Source of the DNA: Gemmata palustris
Lineage (GTDB): Bacteria; Planctomycetota; Planctomycetia; Gemmatales; Gemmataceae
DNA: 64,000 nt
Direction of reading: 5' to 3'
Assembly: GCF_017939745.1 (NCBI RefSeq)
Contig: NZ_JAGKQQ010000001.1
Location: 4,526,001 to 4,590,000 of the forward strand
Below are positions 7,162 to 55,785 of this stretch, in pieces (position 1 is the stretch's first letter; every line of letters begins with the position of its first letter). The position numbers and the translations under genes were made by a program. Under the pieces are notes generated by a model, which did not search any database, had not been told where the DNA came from, and worked only from the letters and a program-made list of their open reading frames with translations.

Positions 7162-8511
7162 TCAGCCCACGCGCTTCAAGAGTTCGTTCAGCACGTCGGC
7201 GTCGCTGGGGTAGTCGGTCGGCAGCAGCACGCGGAGCGGAATCGGCACTTCGTCCATGCGGTACGCGGTGCCGGGTCGGTGGATGCCGTACACGGCCGTT
7301 GTGAACCGCACTGCGGTCGGGACCGGCGGCTCCGCGCCGGACGAATCGAGCGCGATGACCGGGATCTTCCGCAAGTGCTCCAGCGCCGCGGGCGGGAAGT
7401 CGGCGACCGTCTCGCTCCCGACCAGAAGGCAGGCATCAGGTTCACCGCGTGCGAGCACGTTAGGCCCGGTGAACTCGCCGGGGTTGTACCGCGGGTACCC
7501 GCGACTGAGGTTCACGCCGAATGGGTAGCCAGTTTGCCACGCGAGCACGGAGTCCGCGCCGGCCACGTCCCCGAACCGCCGCATCCGGCGCGCGTAGAAC
7601 CGCCCGCGGTCGTTCAGCTCGGAGACCAGTTGCAATAGTGCTTCGACCGTGCGGTGCGCGAGTTTCCCGCGCGTGAGCCCGGCGCCGAAGAAGAACATCC
7701 CGCACCGCGCGGCTGTGATGCGCCCCGCGAGTTCGGAGAGAGCGGGTGAAGGGGCGAAGGGGGTTAGGGGGTTAGGCTCTTCCTCCCCCTTCCCTGGCAG
7801 GAGGGGGTCACAGGGGGAACCCGTGGGGGGTTCTCCCTCACAAGAAGCGAGGGGGCCTGGGGGGGTAGGTCGGACGAGCATCCGCAGGGTCCAGAGCGCG
7901 TCCCAGTTCCGGGCGCTTGGTACCTGCACGAAGAGGTCGGCGCGTTTCGCGGTCTCGGTTTCCTCTTCGTCCACCACGACCACGAACCGATCCGCGCGCC
8001 CGCCGGGGAGCCAGCGCCCGATCGGATCGACCGAGTAACGCTCCATGTGCCGCGGGTGCGTTACGACCGGGTCACTACCCCAAAACACGACGAGGTCCGC
8101 GCGGTTCTTGCCCTCACCGAGCGTGCAGGTAGATTCGCCCACCTGCTGGAGCGCGACGATGGACGGCGCGTGGCCGGTGCTGGCAGTAGTGTCGATGGTC
8201 GCGCCGAGTCGGTCCGCGAGCGCGACGGCCGCGCGCTGACCCTCCGTCGTGCTGCGCGACAGCCCGTAGATGAGTGGATAGCGTGCGGTTCGCAGGATCT
8301 CCGCGGCGCGCGCGAACGCGGCCTCGGGTTCGGCCGGTTGTCCGTCGAGTAGTACCGCGGGGGAAGAAGAGGTGTTTTGTGCGAGGAACCACGGCTCCGC
8401 GAGCTTGCACGCCCCGCGCGCCCCGGTGACGCGCCCCCGGTCCACCGTCACCGTGAGGTCGTCGCACACGCACCCGCACACGGTGCAGCCGACACTGGTG
8501 AAGGTTTGCAT
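7162..8511 (-). CDS. fhcB: formylmethanofuran dehydrogenase-type subunit B (FhcB)
   Basis: FhcB is the B subunit of the formyltransferase/hydrolase complex in the tetrahydromethanopterin C1 oxidation pathway, which converts the formyl group to formate in methylotrophs and some planctomycetes. The N-terminus has a cysteine cluster (C9, C12, C16 and C35, within GCTVCGCVC and GACK), like the [4Fe-4S] motif of molybdopterin oxidoreductases. Later segments such as VVFWGSDPVVTHPRH fit the family. The start ATG ends at 8511, and an alternative longer frame upstream is not supported. About 43 residues near 214-257 are encoded by a dispersed repeat and interrupt the domain in frame. fhcD lies 17 kb away, so the pathway genes are scattered. 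Confidence 0.87.
   Translation of the reverse strand: MQTFTSVGCTVCGCVCDDLTVTVDRGRVTGARGACKLAEPWFLAQNTSSSPAVLLDGQPAEPEAAFARAAEILRTARYPLIYGLSRSTTEGQRAAVALADRLGATIDTTASTGHAPSIVALQQVGESTCTLGEGKNRADLVVFWGSDPVVTHPRHMERYSVDPIGRWLPGGRADRFVVVVDEEETETAKRADLFVQVPSARNWDALWTLRMLVRPTPPGPLASCEGEPPTGSPCDPLLPGKGEEEPNPLTPFAPSPALSELAGRITAARCGMFFFGAGLTRGKLAHRTVEALLQLVSELNDRGRFYARRMRRFGDVAGADSVLAWQTGYPFGVNLSRGYPRYNPGEFTGPNVLARGEPDACLLVGSETVADFPPAALEHLRKIPVIALDSSGAEPPVPTAVRFTTAVYGIHRPGTAYRMDEVPIPLRVLLPTDYPSDADVLNELLKRVG
7742..7870 (-). repeat. dispersed GC-tract repeat embedded in frame in fhcB
   Basis: The DNA consists of G and C runs typical of the intergenic palindromes here. It translates to PTPPGPL, GKGEEEPNPLTPF and similar Pro/Gly/Glu-rich stretches. 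The same translated phrases (PTPPGPLPKGKGE, NPLTPF) occur inside the protein at 54012-55691. About 129 bases (43 codons) keep the fhcB frame open. Boundaries are approximate. Confidence 0.75.
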
Positions 8512-8528
8512 GGAGATTTGTGAGTTTG

Positions 8529-8574
8529 GTCGCGGTTCTCGCCCCACTGCTTTTGGTGGGGCGAGAACCGCGAC
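8529..8574 (-). terminator. 19-bp perfect hairpin between DUF4340 gene and fhcB
   Basis: Arms 8529-8547 and 8556-8574 are exact complements around an 8-base loop. It starts 9 bases past the stop of the DUF4340 gene and ends 18 bases before the fhcB start. It should terminate the exporter operon, leaving fhcB to its own promoter or to readthrough. Confidence 0.65.
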
Positions 8575-8582
8575 TACGGATC

Positions 8583-11111
8583 TTACTTCGCGAACCCGCC
8601 CGGCTTGTCTTTGAACGGCTTCAAGAGTGCGCCGTCGATCGTGAACATCGGGTCGGTGGCGGGCAACCAGCCGGTTTCGCCGTAGTAGGTCGCGCCGTTG
8701 TCCGGGGTGGCCCCGAGCCGGAACGTGACGGCCCCGCCCGGCCACTCGAACCGGACGTCGAGGAACTCGTTCGGGTTGGCGAGCCCGTGCCGGGCTTCGG
8801 GCCGCCCCTGCTCGAAGCCCTTGACGCGGCTCTTGGCGATCAGGTCCACGAACGCCGAGACTTTGGCCGGATCGACCACGAACCCGGCCGGGGCGTTCGG
8901 CGGCGCGCCGGGGGCCGCGGGCGGAACGATCCACACGCCGTCCTTGTTCTTCTCCAGCCGCAGCGTAATGGGCGTGTTCCCCAGAATGTTCCCCCACCCC
9001 TGGAGCACTACCTTGTTCACGGCGGGGGCATCGACGCTGCGGAACACGACCCGGTCGCGCAGGTCGGGGGCCACGAACTTGTCGAGCACCAAGCGCGGGA
9101 GCGTGAACACCGCCGCCTTACCCGCGACGCGGGCGTACACGAAGTTGGGATCGGCGGTGTCCTTGCCGAACTCGTACACGCGCTCCTTGTCCAGCGAATC
9201 GGGCTTCAGCCCGACGACGACCTTCAGGCGCGGCGCGGGCGTGAACCCGTACTCGGCGAGTTTCGCGTCGCTCGGTTGTTCGTCCACGAACCGCGTAACC
9301 GATTGTGTGGTGCCGAGCAGTTGGAGGATGTACTCCAGGCTCTTGGGGTCCGCGATGCGGCCCTTCGGTTCCGGGGCGGCGAACCGCCACAAAACCTCTT
9401 TCGTGGACGGATCAGGCTTCTCGTCCTTGTTGAGCACGTAATTGTTCGCGCCGCTCACGTTGACCTGCATCACCGCGTCGGAGCCGAACGTCGGGAGCGA
9501 CGGGTCGAGGAGGTCCAAACGCGATTTAGCGACCGCGGTGATCGCGTCCACGGTATCGGTGGCCCCTCCAACCTTCACCTGTGCCGGGATCGTGAACTCG
9601 TTGGGCGGGAGCCCGGGCAGCGTGCGCCGGACGTAAACCGTGTCGCCGTCCTTGCGCCCGAACTCGATTTTGATCGGCTCGGCCTTCTTGGTCGGCTCCG
9701 CTTTGGGATCGGTCGGCGCGGTGAATCCGTCTGCCCATACGAAGATCGTAGCGGAGATCGCGGCGAAGTTGGCCGGGTTCGGTGGGGGGAAGTCTTTGAT
9801 CGTTCGCCGCGCCATAACGACATCGAGCAACCGCTCGACCGGTCCGCGGTCCGCGGACTGCGGGTCACCCGGCCCGCCGAAGAGCCGCCATTGCAGTGGC
9901 ACCTCCCCGGAACGCCGGAGTTTCGTCGGCTTGTCGGCCGGCTGACCGGCGAGCACGATGTCGATGCCATCGACCTTCGCGCGGTCCGCGTTCACCAGGG
10001 TGCGGTCACGGAGCGGAGCGGGATCGAGGACGACGCCGTTCAGCCCGGACAGATCGCCCGCCGTGGCGCGGATCACGCCCGGCTGCCCCTCGACGCGCAC
10101 GTACACTTTGCCGCTCGGGGGGCTCGGCGGCGCGCCCGGGAGCGTCACGGGCGGGGCCGCCCCTTCGCGCTTGCCGAGGTACACAATCGCGGTCTGGTTG
10201 TCCTTGGTCTTCATCTCGACCTTCACGAGGTCGGGGTTGCCCGCGTCCAGGCCGTATTCCTTGAGGTCTTTCGGGGCGTCGATGAAGTCGGCCGGGGTCG
10301 CGGCGGTCACGCTCGTGAGCGCACCGAGCAGTCGGCGGACGCCGGTGAACGTGGTCGGCGACCCGGCCGCGTCGCCCTCGACATCGGCGTCGCCCCACCC
10401 GGCCGGGCTATCGAACTTCCACGCCCCCCCGGGTGCGCGAGTAAGGGCGAGCGTCGCTTTCTTGTTTGGTAATTCCAGGCGCACCGAAGTGACGTCCTCG
10501 CCCACCGCACGCGAATCGGAGGGGAAGATTGCTGACGAACGATAGTCCGCGGTCCACTTCGTCAGGTCGCCCGCCTTGCCGCCGCCCGCGACTTGATCCT
10601 GGCGGAAGAGCGCGTCGAGGTCGCGGCGCCCCACCGCGATGGGGCGATCGGGTTTGGCCGTTGTGGTCACGAACGCCACCGCTTCCCGACCACCGATACT
10701 GACGTTGCCAACGTTCAGCGTGCCGGACCGCTGTTCGCCCTGGCGCAGCGTGACTTTCAGGCTCGGCGGCTGGAGACCGTGGAGCGCGGGGTTGGAACTC
10801 AGTTCCGCGAACACGGTCGGCTTGGCCTTGAGCAGGGATTCGACGATCGCTTTGACGGCCGCCCCGTTCGCTTTCGCGCGGATCGGCTCGACGATCTCCC
10901 AATCGTCGTTGACAACGCGCTTGAACTTGAGCGTGGCCGATGTGTCGGGGCGCTCGATGACGACCTCGTCAATGTCCCCGACCTTCGCCCCGCTCAGGCC
11001 GACGAGGAGCGTGTCGGGTGCCGCGGGATCGAGGAAGAACGTCCGAACGAGCAGCACGGTGCCAATCAGGAGGACGGCACCGATCAGAACCGTCGTCAGT
11101 CGGAAATTCAT
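8583..11111 (-). CDS. DUF4340 domain protein of a Gld-type ABC exporter
   Basis: The 842-aa protein has one N-terminal membrane helix (about residues 6-26, NFRLTTVLIGAVLLIGTVLL) followed by several repeats of the DUF4340 type. These occur as TLKFKRVVNDDWEIVEP near 60 and similar beta-rich units later. Such proteins are encoded next to GldF/GldG-like ABC transporters and probably form an extracytoplasmic part of the complex; the substrate is unknown. The start ATG ending at 11111 places the helix at the N-terminus. It begins 46 bases after the GldG-like gene and ends just before a strong hairpin, so it is the last gene of the four-gene operon. Confidence 0.85.
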   Translation of the reverse strand: MNFRLTTVLIGAVLLIGTVLLVRTFFLDPAAPDTLLVGLSGAKVGDIDEVVIERPDTSATLKFKRVVNDDWEIVEPIRAKANGAAVKAIVESLLKAKPTVFAELSSNPALHGLQPPSLKVTLRQGEQRSGTLNVGNVSIGGREAVAFVTTTAKPDRPIAVGRRDLDALFRQDQVAGGGKAGDLTKWTADYRSSAIFPSDSRAVGEDVTSVRLELPNKKATLALTRAPGGAWKFDSPAGWGDADVEGDAAGSPTTFTGVRRLLGALTSVTAATPADFIDAPKDLKEYGLDAGNPDLVKVEMKTKDNQTAIVYLGKREGAAPPVTLPGAPPSPPSGKVYVRVEGQPGVIRATAGDLSGLNGVVLDPAPLRDRTLVNADRAKVDGIDIVLAGQPADKPTKLRRSGEVPLQWRLFGGPGDPQSADRGPVERLLDVVMARRTIKDFPPPNPANFAAISATIFVWADGFTAPTDPKAEPTKKAEPIKIEFGRKDGDTVYVRRTLPGLPPNEFTIPAQVKVGGATDTVDAITAVAKSRLDLLDPSLPTFGSDAVMQVNVSGANNYVLNKDEKPDPSTKEVLWRFAAPEPKGRIADPKSLEYILQLLGTTQSVTRFVDEQPSDAKLAEYGFTPAPRLKVVVGLKPDSLDKERVYEFGKDTADPNFVYARVAGKAAVFTLPRLVLDKFVAPDLRDRVVFRSVDAPAVNKVVLQGWGNILGNTPITLRLEKNKDGVWIVPPAAPGAPPNAPAGFVVDPAKVSAFVDLIAKSRVKGFEQGRPEARHGLANPNEFLDVRFEWPGGAVTFRLGATPDNGATYYGETGWLPATDPMFTIDGALLKPFKDKPGGFAK

Positions 11112-41650: not shown

Positions 41651-41990
41651 GGGACCGCGGGCATCTTGCCCGCACGAGCCGAGCCCAAATGCTTTCCGAA
41701 GTATTTGGGCGGTTTGTAGTCCGCTTCCGCCAAGCGATTGCAAGTGCCTGGTGCGTCTTTTGCCCTCTCCCCTTGCGGGAGAGGGTGGTGAGGCTTTGCG
41801 AACCGGGTGAGGGGTACTCCCTGAATGTGGAAGCAACCCCTCACCCCGCCGCGAAGCGCGGCGACCCTCTCCCGCAAGGGGAGAGGGCACAACCAATTGT
41901 TGCCAGCGCTTGGCCGGAGCGGGCTACAGAAGACAACACCCACGCGATGCGGTAGGCGTCCTCAGGTGCGAGCACCTTGCCCGCGGTCCC
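41651..41990. repeat. nested palindromic repeat region
   Basis: The 359-base gap between CocE and DUF1501 genes holds no gene. Outer arms 41651-41675 and 41966-41990 are imperfect complements (GGGACCGCGGGCA core) and relate to the repeat at 7039-7157. Inner arms 41762-41785 and 41865-41888 are perfect 24-base complements (core CCCTCTCCCCTTGCGGGAGAGG). The GGGTGAGGGG/CCCCTCACCC pair lies between them. The inner type resembles the elements inside the FhcB and CehA-like genes. Confidence 0.75.
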
Positions 41991-54011: not shown

Positions 54012-55691
54012 TCACGTGCCGGCTCCCAGTTTTTGTGCGGCTTCCGCGCACCGGTCGAGCAGTGTTTGTTTCCGCTTGGGGTTCGCGAACCGGCCCTGGG
54101 TTTCGACCCATTCGCACATCTGCTCGATCAGCCCTCGCAGCGCCGCGACCGCGTCCGGATTTCGGGTCGGCGAGCCCACAACGACCGGCGATGTGTGCGC
54201 GAAACCGGCCGAACCCATCACGCGCGCTGCCACCCAACCGGGCGCGCTGATCGTTGCTTCCGCGCGCGCGTTTGATGCGACGACGTCACCGTTCGCGACG
54301 ATCTCCACGGGTCGTGACTCGAAGGGCGCCCGTTGGGAGGCACTCGCGCGCTGGCCCTCGACCGCGAACGTGAGGAGCGGACCCGCTGTCACGAACGTGC
54401 TCCCGGCGCGAACGGCCGCGAGCCAGGAAGAACCTCCCCCCCCCGCCCCCCTCGCTTCTAGTGAGGGGGAGAAAGAACCATCGGACATGGGCATGGCTTT
54501 ATGCCCAGCGATTTCGCGCGCCAGCTCCCCCTTCCCTTTAGGGAGGGGGCCCGGGGGGGTAGGTTGTATCTGCAACCCCTCCCCAACCCCTCCCCTAAGC
54601 GGAGAGGGGCTTAATACCGGCGCTTGTGGCGTGATGCCCGTCGTATTTGGTTCTGTTCCCCCTTCCTTCTTAGGGAAGGGGGTTAGGGGGTTAGGTTGTC
54701 TTTGCTCCTCCCCCTTCCCTTTAGGGAGGGGAGCCGGGGGGGGAGATTGCTCCCGCGCGTAGGTCCGCATCGCGCCGAGCGGCACCGCGTTCGAGTCCTT
54801 GCCGCTCGCGCCGACGAGCGGCACCATCACCCCCGCGTCCCAGAGCCGGTACACCCACGGCATTAGCGGCGACTTGCGCGGTTTCGCGCACACTTCGATC
54901 GCATCAATCTTCCCCAGAATCGCGGCGACGAGCGCCTCGCCTCCGGTTACCCCGCCGGTCGGCTCGAACGCATCGACCCACACCACCAATCCGCCCTTGC
55001 GGTGGCACTGGTCGCACCAGTCGCAGATGCCCCAATCGTCGGAATCTTCGCCGCCGAAGGTGAGGGGAAACACCGGGCGGTGCGAGTTCAGGAGCGACAC
55101 CTTCCCCAACACCGGGTGAGTGTTGAAGGTGTTGACGATGACCGCGTGCCCGTCGCGCTCCAGTGCGGGAACTTGCCCGCTGAACGCGAGCAGGTTCGGC
55201 GTGGTGGTGTACGTGTTGGCGTCCATCGCCAGGACCGGGATCGGTGTCGCCAGCACGTTCACGGAAGTCAGGTCTTCGGCTCGGGCTTCGAGGAGCGCCG
55301 CGTGCGGCGGGAGGAAATGGCTCCGCGCATCAAACGTCACCCAGCCTTCCGCGCGCGTGTCGATCCAGCGCTCGATTGTGAACCGCAGGGAAATTTGCCC
55401 GGCGCCGAGGGTGACGGGCGCGTCGAGTGGTGTCCATTCCGGCCCCTTCGCGGCTTGTACCCGGAGCGGCACGCCGGCCGGGAGCGGCACTTCACACGCG
55501 CCATCAATGTAGAACCAGCGCTCGCGCCCGATTCTCAGGTGACCGCCGACGTCCTCGTTGCGCCCGCCGGCGAACTCCGCGGACCGGCCGAGCGGCGCGT
55601 AGTGGGTTCCGTCCGGTCCGGTGATGCGCACGCGAACGGGGACCGGTCGGTTCGTGGTCGCGGCGTTGATCCGAAGGTGAACATTCAACAT
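54012..55691 (-). CDS. CehA/McbA-like metallohydrolase with embedded repeat
   Basis: The 559-aa protein starts at the ATG ending at 55691 (MLNVHLRINAA), without a clear signal peptide. The C-terminal part shows the CehA/McbA pattern (PHP-type metallohydrolase): VRAGSTFVTAGPLLTFAVEGQ and the preceding ASGKDSNAVPLGAMRTYAR. Upstream are DARSHFLPPH and DWCDQCHRKGGLVVWVDAFEP. An in-frame repeat of about 106 residues (near 315-420) separates YAREQ and WLAAVRAGS, which normally are adjacent. This could impair or simply decorate the enzyme. Substrate is unknown. Confidence 0.75.
   Translation of the reverse strand: MLNVHLRINAATTNRPVPVRVRITGPDGTHYAPLGRSAEFAGGRNEDVGGHLRIGRERWFYIDGACEVPLPAGVPLRVQAAKGPEWTPLDAPVTLGAGQISLRFTIERWIDTRAEGWVTFDARSHFLPPHAALLEARAEDLTSVNVLATPIPVLAMDANTYTTTPNLLAFSGQVPALERDGHAVIVNTFNTHPVLGKVSLLNSHRPVFPLTFGGEDSDDWGICDWCDQCHRKGGLVVWVDAFEPTGGVTGGEALVAAILGKIDAIEVCAKPRKSPLMPWVYRLWDAGVMVPLVGASGKDSNAVPLGAMRTYAREQSPPPAPLPKGKGEEQRQPNPLTPFPKKEGGTEPNTTGITPQAPVLSPSPLRGGVGEGLQIQPTPPGPLPKGKGELAREIAGHKAMPMSDGSFSPSLEARGAGGGGSSWLAAVRAGSTFVTAGPLLTFAVEGQRASASQRAPFESRPVEIVANGDVVASNARAEATISAPGWVAARVMGSAGFAHTSPVVVGSPTRNPDAVAALRGLIEQMCEWVETQGRFANPKRKQTLLDRCAEAAQKLGAGT
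54431..54748 (-). repeat. dispersed G/C-tract repeats embedded in frame
   Basis: About 318 bases made of several related palindromic units, with tracts such as CCCCCTTCCCTTTAGGGAGG twice and GGGGTTAGGGGGTTAGG. In translation it repeats PLPKGKGE, NPLTPFPKKEG and SPSPLRGGVGEGL-type phrases. The frame stays open through the whole array. It shares sequence with the insert in fhcB (7742-7870) and style with 41762-41888. Boundaries are approximate. Confidence 0.8.
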
Positions 55692-55785
55692 GAGAGGAAC
55701 GTGTTCCGCCACATTAAGGGACAGCGTTGGGGACGAATCGATTCCGGGCGCCACGGTTTGCGCTGGCGTCGCTATTGGCCGATGT

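Follow-up and report, generated by a model that had tools for sequence, protein, structure and literature searches.

The host gene and its insert

The window—the whole stretch of 64,000 nucleotides of Gemmata palustris DNA that was analysed—contains on its minus strand a gene for a CehA/McbA-like protein of 580 aa with a PHP-like fold (54012–55754, GTG start as listed) and, inside this gene, an in-frame repeat insert of 318 bp at 54431–54748. The family assignment, proposed in the initial annotation, can be upheld in part: the NCBIfam model CehA_McbA_metalo matches the product with 53.9 bits, below its cut-off of 80, and a Pfam scan gave no match. The best PDB match of the predicted fold is a PHP domain (7ug9, E 6e-4), and this modelled fold is in keeping with the sub-threshold CehA/McbA match. 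The host core is predicted confidently, with ten-residue blocks mostly at about 90 or above. The insert lies between a strand (residues 330–333) and a helix (residues 441–449) and is predicted to be disordered, with pLDDT below 50 at residues 338–342, 349–399, and 402–441.

The insert comprises 106 codons, equivalent to about residues 336–441, and is free of stops in the minus-strand open reading frame (ORF). A palindromic repeat family that keeps the frame open inside a gene had been claimed for this place, and the borders then given coincide exactly with the outer borders of five units of a 41-nt palindrome, arranged as two inverted pairs and one single unit; the subtype letters A, B, C, and D are labels assigned in the present analysis. 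The first pair (54431–54565, 135 bp; whole-pair hairpin z −3.49) consists of a plus-strand D unit (54431–54471), with its AACC tag at 54431 pointing outward and a DNA hairpin z of −3.14, and its minus-strand A partner (54525–54565; single-hairpin z −0.29). The second (54574–54697; pair hairpin z −2.04), of 124 bp and thus of the commonest dimer length measured, joins a plus-strand C unit (54574–54612; z −0.95) to a minus-strand B unit (54656–54697; z −2.71). A single minus-strand A unit with the tag AATC follows at 54708–54748 (z −0.05). Tags point outward in both inverted pairs. As DNA hairpins, three of the five single units (A, C, and A) are unremarkable, and D and B are strong. Allowing up to three mismatches, two occurrences of the 20-mer core are present in the window, as against none in 100 shuffles.

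A likeness of the inserted peptides to those of FhcB had also been noted, and it is borne out by a second host in the window. The minus-strand ORF 7162–8997 is formylmethanofuran dehydrogenase subunit B by TIGR03129 (E 1.4e-114, in two stretches, the best-scoring one covering residues 169–376 and thus starting at residue 169 of the listed ORF), and it carries, in this genome, a minus-strand in-frame insert at 7756–7870 in which three units (B, A, and D) are matched partially or nearly completely and the frame is open. Elsewhere in the window, at 41763–41893, a palindrome of another type (CCCTCTCCC...GGGAGAGGG) is present as two copies that face each other and gives a weak match to unit C.

A search with the CehA/McbA-like host found matches in 43 of 59 genomes, its own included, a match possibly being partial or confined to the repeat, and an alignment was made of 30 orthologous places. 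In it, each of the 11 orthologues from the family's other genera has a short loop without a unit, and none of them carries the same insert in non-repeat DNA. Within the genus, units are recognised by profile at the insert place in 7 of 19 orthologues (G000, which is the genome of the window, G001, G003, G005, G008, G010, and G004, the last at a contig end); in an eighth (G018), the contig stops within a similar peptide that has no profile match, so that the contigs of both G004 and G018 break off at the insert. The 11 genus orthologues without units comprise two with a short extension that is not the repeat by profile (G002 and G015) and nine with neither repeat nor extension. The two halves of the host are adjacent in orthologues lacking the insert, as the initial annotation had anticipated. 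Neither length nor order nor orientation is constant among the genus inserts. In a tree built from the host part before the insert, the insert label requires at least three changes, placed on well-supported branches; these may represent one gain and two losses.

A dispersed family of inverted palindromes

The 41-nt unit has the form 5′-AACC(TA)-C tract-nnn-C tract/hairpin/G tract. Among 22 aligned units, the first two columns of the tag are invariant A and the third is C in at least 90%, AACC being the rule. The usual dispersed form consists of two inverted units with their tags outward, spanning about 100–186 bp, and has the terminal inverted repeats of miniature transposable elements (MITEs), with AACC...GGTT ends often extended to GAAGAACC...GGTTCTTC.

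The four subtypes differ in sequence and largely keep the stem. Stem positions pair in 83.0% of cells as against 75.1% in shuffles, and 20 stem cells have changed on both sides as against 6.8, neither value being reached in any of 500 shuffles. Two of five covariation measures were no better than shuffles, namely pairs with change on both sides (3 versus 2.5) and further pair types (5 versus 6.6). An Rfam scan of 601 bases returned 17 matches at E values up to 1, none reaching its gathering score.

A blastn search of the insert against its own 9.23-Mb genome returned 60 places, the insert itself included, and a covariance model of the unit gave at least 151 matches there, with 150 of 3487 first-look candidates scored. 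The covariance-model matches together with three blastn places form 93 seed clusters, which were extracted together with up to 4 kb of flanking sequence on either side. A profile search of these seed regions found at least 214 distinct units in 99 clusters, of which 78 contain a tag-outward inverted pair, 17 are single units, and 4 have another arrangement. One cluster only lacked a seed in the 736,244 unique bases searched, which suggests, by extrapolation, that about a dozen further clusters are still unseen at the same stringency. Along the main contig, the seed clusters are unevenly spread, with 26 in the first half and 61 in the second (n = 87, binomial p 2e-4); this may be related to replication or to a region of different history.

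Dimer lengths peak at 124, 100, and 132 bp, with class-specific remainders modulo 3 (some ends are mis-called by about 5 bases). Selection on dimer length was considered as the cause and is not claimed, as similar lengths and remainders are seen in copies that lie outside open frames.

Residence in coding frames

To assess how the clusters sit relative to genes, codon usage was learned from 264 long ORFs of the cluster regions, and the resulting score was computed for the 240 bases flanking each cluster on either side. Coding sequence is present on both sides of 68 of the 99 clusters: in 54 cases on the same strand and in the same frame, in 12 on the same strand in another frame, and in 2 on opposite strands; the remaining 31 have at least one weak flank. 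The same-frame clusters thus make up 54 of 66 same-strand cases (p 7e-16 against one-third), and their number is 38 with flanks of 90 bases and 51 with flanks of 150. By a second criterion, residence in an ORF with a coding score on both sides, 61 of the 99 clusters score above 0.05 and 51 above 0.1. Copies are present in both orientations, and some have no open spanning frame. For comparison, random stretches were drawn from the same regions with equal lengths skipped (n = 1340); 702 were classed as same frame, 78 as different frame, 48 as opposite strands, and 512 as weak. The clusters are thus about as genic and continuous as the ordinary sequence of the genome, a comparison made within the same neighbourhoods and without a formal test.

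Among the 54 in-frame clusters, 52 are free of stops and 2 contain one, and both other sense frames are closed in 45. The antisense frame is open in 50; one frame per strand can thus usually be read, which the palindromic nature of the unit permits. Sense against antisense openness was accordingly discarded as proof of selection (52 and 50 of 54, respectively): because the antisense frame is also open, an open sense frame by itself is weak evidence of selection, and the evidential weight lies on the agreement of frame and length.

Host genes across the genome

A Pfam scan of 40 of the 61 ORF entries (two of them, L045 and L082, without a match) placed inserts within or between the domains of phenylalanyl-tRNA synthetase beta (PheT, L050), TilS (L079), SelB (L055), UvrA (L056), RarA/MgsA (L057), RecD2 (L059), an aldehyde dehydrogenase (L085), a PNKP ligase (L087), and others. 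The insert splits the Pfam domain into two stretches in RarA, the aldehyde dehydrogenase, the PNKP ligase, AIRS, and five DUF1553 proteins, and the NCBIfam models of PheT, TilS, UvrA, and FhcB each match in two stretches. In the PNKP-ligase ORF, about 950 bp lie between two distinct in-frame clusters.

The five DUF1553 paralogues (L063, L064, L070, L076, and L088) are all split at profile positions 62–66 of 244, and none of the other DUF1553 genes, 61 in all by a hand count over 71 rows, is split there. Identity among the five around the insert is only 33%–50%, and in a second Gemmata genome (G008) the orthologue of L088 holds a repeat and that of L064 does not; some of these insertions, at least, thus look separate.

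Turnover between species

The flanks of 16 hosts were searched in G008, which is a single contig, and in G010, and the regions were read for 18 hosts. In G008, 17 of the 18 host sites are readable, and their length differences from G000 are all multiples of three, with no stop. The remaining site (L047) was set aside as its flank contains a repeat; the raw distance there is 67 bases, which is not a multiple of three. Fourteen of the readable sites hold repeats and three do not (PheT, the DUF1553 gene L064, and the TPR protein L089); these three are variable loops that have diverged too far for a target-site duplication to be read. The inserts of L056 and L088 are clearly the same in G008 as in G000, with small changes; at L059 the C-B pair is present in reverse orientation, and at L134 and L057 the pair types differ. 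In G010, 9 of 17 sites keep their length modulo 3, and several show stops. That assembly is a 454 draft (PMC4672568), and its long G and C tracts make homopolymer errors the likely source of the frameshifts, so that the out-of-frame sites are probably sequencing errors.

PheT gave matches in all 19 genus genomes, the one in G003 being partial and at a contig end. Across 17 aligned genes, G000 has a C-B pair at the insert place, G006 one unit, and G015 a different palindrome, and in the other 14 no unit was found there; the gene of G016 has a possible remnant at its end, judged by eye. The palindrome in the G015 loop (L138) resembles, by eye, those around one of the Y1 transposase genes described below (L043).

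TilS was found in 16 of the 19 genus genomes, the sole matches in G004, G007, and G018 looking like the repeat; these three and G006 were left out of the alignment. At 15 loci, the profile recognises units in the loop in six (G000, G005, G008, G010, G011, and G015) and none in eight. The remaining one, G016, has a peptide of similar make-up with no profile match, and its match contains a TGA. In G005 the repeat peptide reads in reverse orientation, and in G010 there is no single frame. At the same loop, the genes of G003 (L165) and G013 (L172) have other low-complexity peptides (QRSEDRDQKRPDDLSSDLCPL... and VGSGQWTEKTEDSS..., respectively), which may derive from yet other repeats.

Distribution beyond the genus

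A unit search of the 59 genomes with stricter filters found units in 14 of 19 genus genomes. The five without (G009, G012, G013, G014, and G017) also have no insert in the CehA/McbA-like host. Among other-genus members of the family, 3 of 18 carry units (G028, G029, and G033), one genome of the same order (G039) gave one weak hit, and the remaining genomes gave none at that threshold.

An exact 24-mer of the B unit occurs in at least 119 stretches. Among the matches listed, its hosts are many Cyanobacteria (Nostoc, Trichormus, Anabaena, Calothrix, and others), Gemmata, and other Planctomycetota, as well as an Anaerolineae metagenome-assembled genome (MAG), two Latescibacterota MAGs, and a Chthonomonadaceae MAG, with binning errors possible for these minor phyla. 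The unit profile matches 78 of 80 such loci. The cyanobacterial copies are mostly single, their stems match at 35%–49% G+C, and several lie in long open frames, judged by openness of the frame. Seven of these loci (L276, L281, L303, L314, L339, L341, and L344) have in common an open-frame unit, PNPLTPFP.REGG, with a long open frame on both sides and, judged by sequence, look like one orthologous gene.

The question of a mover

Three genes in the genome of the window match Y1_Tnp (PF01797; L041, L042, and L043), each amid palindromes of its own by eye, and these look like separate REP/RAYT systems. The surroundings of 31 Gemmata Y1_Tnp loci (E up to 0.1), inspected to as much as 1.5 kb, contain no repeat unit, and neither do those of 30 Y1_Tnp loci from elsewhere (E up to 1); these 61 are the loci returned by the search, not every Y1 match. 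Y1_Tnp is present in 16 of the 19 genus genomes, and it gave no match in G008, a genome with at least 113 units, or in Laspinema, which also has units. A RAYT as the mover is thus unsupported, with none of the 61 inspected loci having a unit nearby, and no parent transposon was found.

Origin and maintenance of the inserts

The repeats form a dispersed family of inverted palindromes that lies mostly in frame where the flanks are coding and changes its content at fixed sites. The explanation to which we give high confidence is that of a REPIN-like mobile palindromic repeat that is probably read as a disordered protein loop, with selection for frame acting as the filter. Copies would land at many positions, and those breaking genes would be removed. 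Within a gene, survival of a copy would be limited to surface loops that tolerate it, to the one usual stop-free frame of its strand, and to a net length divisible by three, the palindrome making either orientation readable. The surviving copy would presumably be translated as a proline- and glycine-rich disordered loop, harmless to the enzyme, and a loop already holding repeats could have further copies added, lost, or swapped.

That the peptides are instead domesticated, being useful in binding, sorting, or regulation and kept in frame for that reason, appears improbable. The presence of in-frame repeats in both species (G000 and G008) at 14 of 17 readable sites is what domestication would lead one to expect, and several of the hosts are DNA- or RNA-handling enzymes, as has been noted for other intragenic REPs (PMC3733652); however, a given site is free to vary in sequence and length, some orthologues lack the repeat, and the insert is predicted to be disordered in the one host modelled.

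A repeat present in the gene may also be absent from the protein, through removal from RNA or protein or through ribosomes bypassing the hairpins. Some of the hairpins are strong (D, B, and the D-A pair), and a non-coding gap is known to be bypassed in T4 gene 60 (PMC11194080). Excision or bypass would require neither a kept frame nor a kept length nor the avoidance of stops, yet 54 of 66 same-strand clusters are in frame, 52 of these 54 are open, and all 17 readable G008 sites differ by multiples of three, which makes both processes very unlikely.

Equally unlikely is the idea that the hosts are dying genes or the inserts assembly errors. The frameshifts of the G010 454 draft, the contigs of G004 and G018 that end at the insert, and the TGA in the G016 TilS match would fit it; against it stand the matches to PheT in 19 of 19 and to TilS in 16 of 19 genus genomes, with conserved C-terminal halves, the coding signal on both sides of the clusters, and the in-frame inserts of the single-contig G008. 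An ordinary proline- and glycine-rich linker, repetitive through base composition and slippage with no mobile element involved, can practically be dismissed, for while the sites are naturally variable loops and the insert is low in complexity, the units have sharp borders and four subtypes with a common tag, identical copies are dispersed in both orientations and also where no spanning frame is open, shuffles gave no hit, and the same 24-mer recurs in Cyanobacteria of 35%–49% G+C.

A translated mobile repeat filtered for frame could in addition belong to a trans-phylum lineage that has adapted to genes as its normal habitat, returns to the same core-enzyme loops in different species, and is moved by something other than a Y1 RAYT; this extension is offered tentatively. 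If it is true, selection would have shaped the repeat itself for readability as protein, beyond the weeding out of bad insertions.

Rickettsia and Wolbachia are the best-known sources of palindromic repeats that lie in frame, and isolated REP examples are on record from other bacteria. The large planctomycete genome analysed here has over half of its clusters in coding frames, and in its relatives the same genes contain other versions of the repeat or none at all. Gemmata thereby makes it testable whether core enzymes regularly gain peptide from mobile DNA, at what cost, and whether evolution can render a selfish repeat harmless in its translated form. For annotators, proline- and glycine-rich stretches are to be expected in the proteins of Gemmata and of some Cyanobacteria, and frameshifts in such tracts are suspect in 454 assemblies.

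Comparison with known repeat systems

No description of the Gemmata family was found among the titles listed from the openly licensed literature, those of a search by exact sequence included. The nearest parallel in its way of working is with the Rickettsia palindromic elements (RPEs) and Wolbachia palindromic elements, palindromes of about 100–150 bp that lie in frame in unrelated genes and add a peptide; the Gemmata repeats, too, are found in frame inside pre-existing genes. Rickettsia conorii has 44 RPE copies, nearly half of them in genes (PMC10969869), and a solvent-exposed insertion position and possible hot spots have been discussed for RPEs (PMC3767692). Such a position, exposed to solvent and tolerant of disorder, is predicted for the insert in the one Gemmata host modelled. 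Unlike RPEs, the Gemmata family occurs in other organisms and is built of inverted pairs of a G/C-tract unit with an AACC tag, being set apart here by description; 51 to 61 of its 99 clusters lie in open coding frames, and its content varies at the same loops between species. The resemblance to Rickettsia drawn in the initial annotation thus extends to the way of working, in-frame palindromes inside genes, and not to membership.

Structurally, the family is closer to REPs. GTAG/CGTC REPs are described as palindromes of 20–40 bp with a fixed tag at one end, often forming inverted dimers and for the most part intergenic; the intragenic ones of Opitutus terrae, Thauera, and Thioalkalivibrio encode 20–30 residues (43–82 in clusters), several have DNA- or RNA-handling hosts, uvrA among them, and two recB genes carry different REPs at about the same site (PMC3733652). 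The Gemmata units likewise are tagged at one end, form inverted dimers, occur within genes, and have a UvrA host. Their tag, however, is AACC and not GTAG or CGTC, they are not mainly extragenic, and none of the 61 inspected Y1 transposase loci has a unit beside it.

In Pseudomonas fluorescens SBW25, REPINs replicate as inverted doublets of REPs, spacer included, with a predicted hairpin fold; REPs there are associated with a RAYT gene, and overlap with genes is seen for only 14 of the 1,067 copies of the commonest 16-mers (PMC3116915). An inverted doublet is also the dispersed form in 78 of the 99 Gemmata clusters, but over half of the clusters are genic and no link to a RAYT was found.

The small dispersed repeats (SDRs) of heterocystous Cyanobacteria are short repeats of Nostoc and its relatives. 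The 24-mer of the Gemmata B unit is found in the same organisms, and the two are set side by side here by description only.

What is new relative to the known repeats is the AACC tag, the largely genic location, the reuse of the same loops, and the spread across phyla, with no link to a RAYT found. The tag and the mainly extragenic location of REPs are absent, their RAYT association was not seen at the 61 loci inspected, and kinship with RPEs was judged by description; the Gemmata family is thus assigned to neither group, working like RPEs and built like REPINs.
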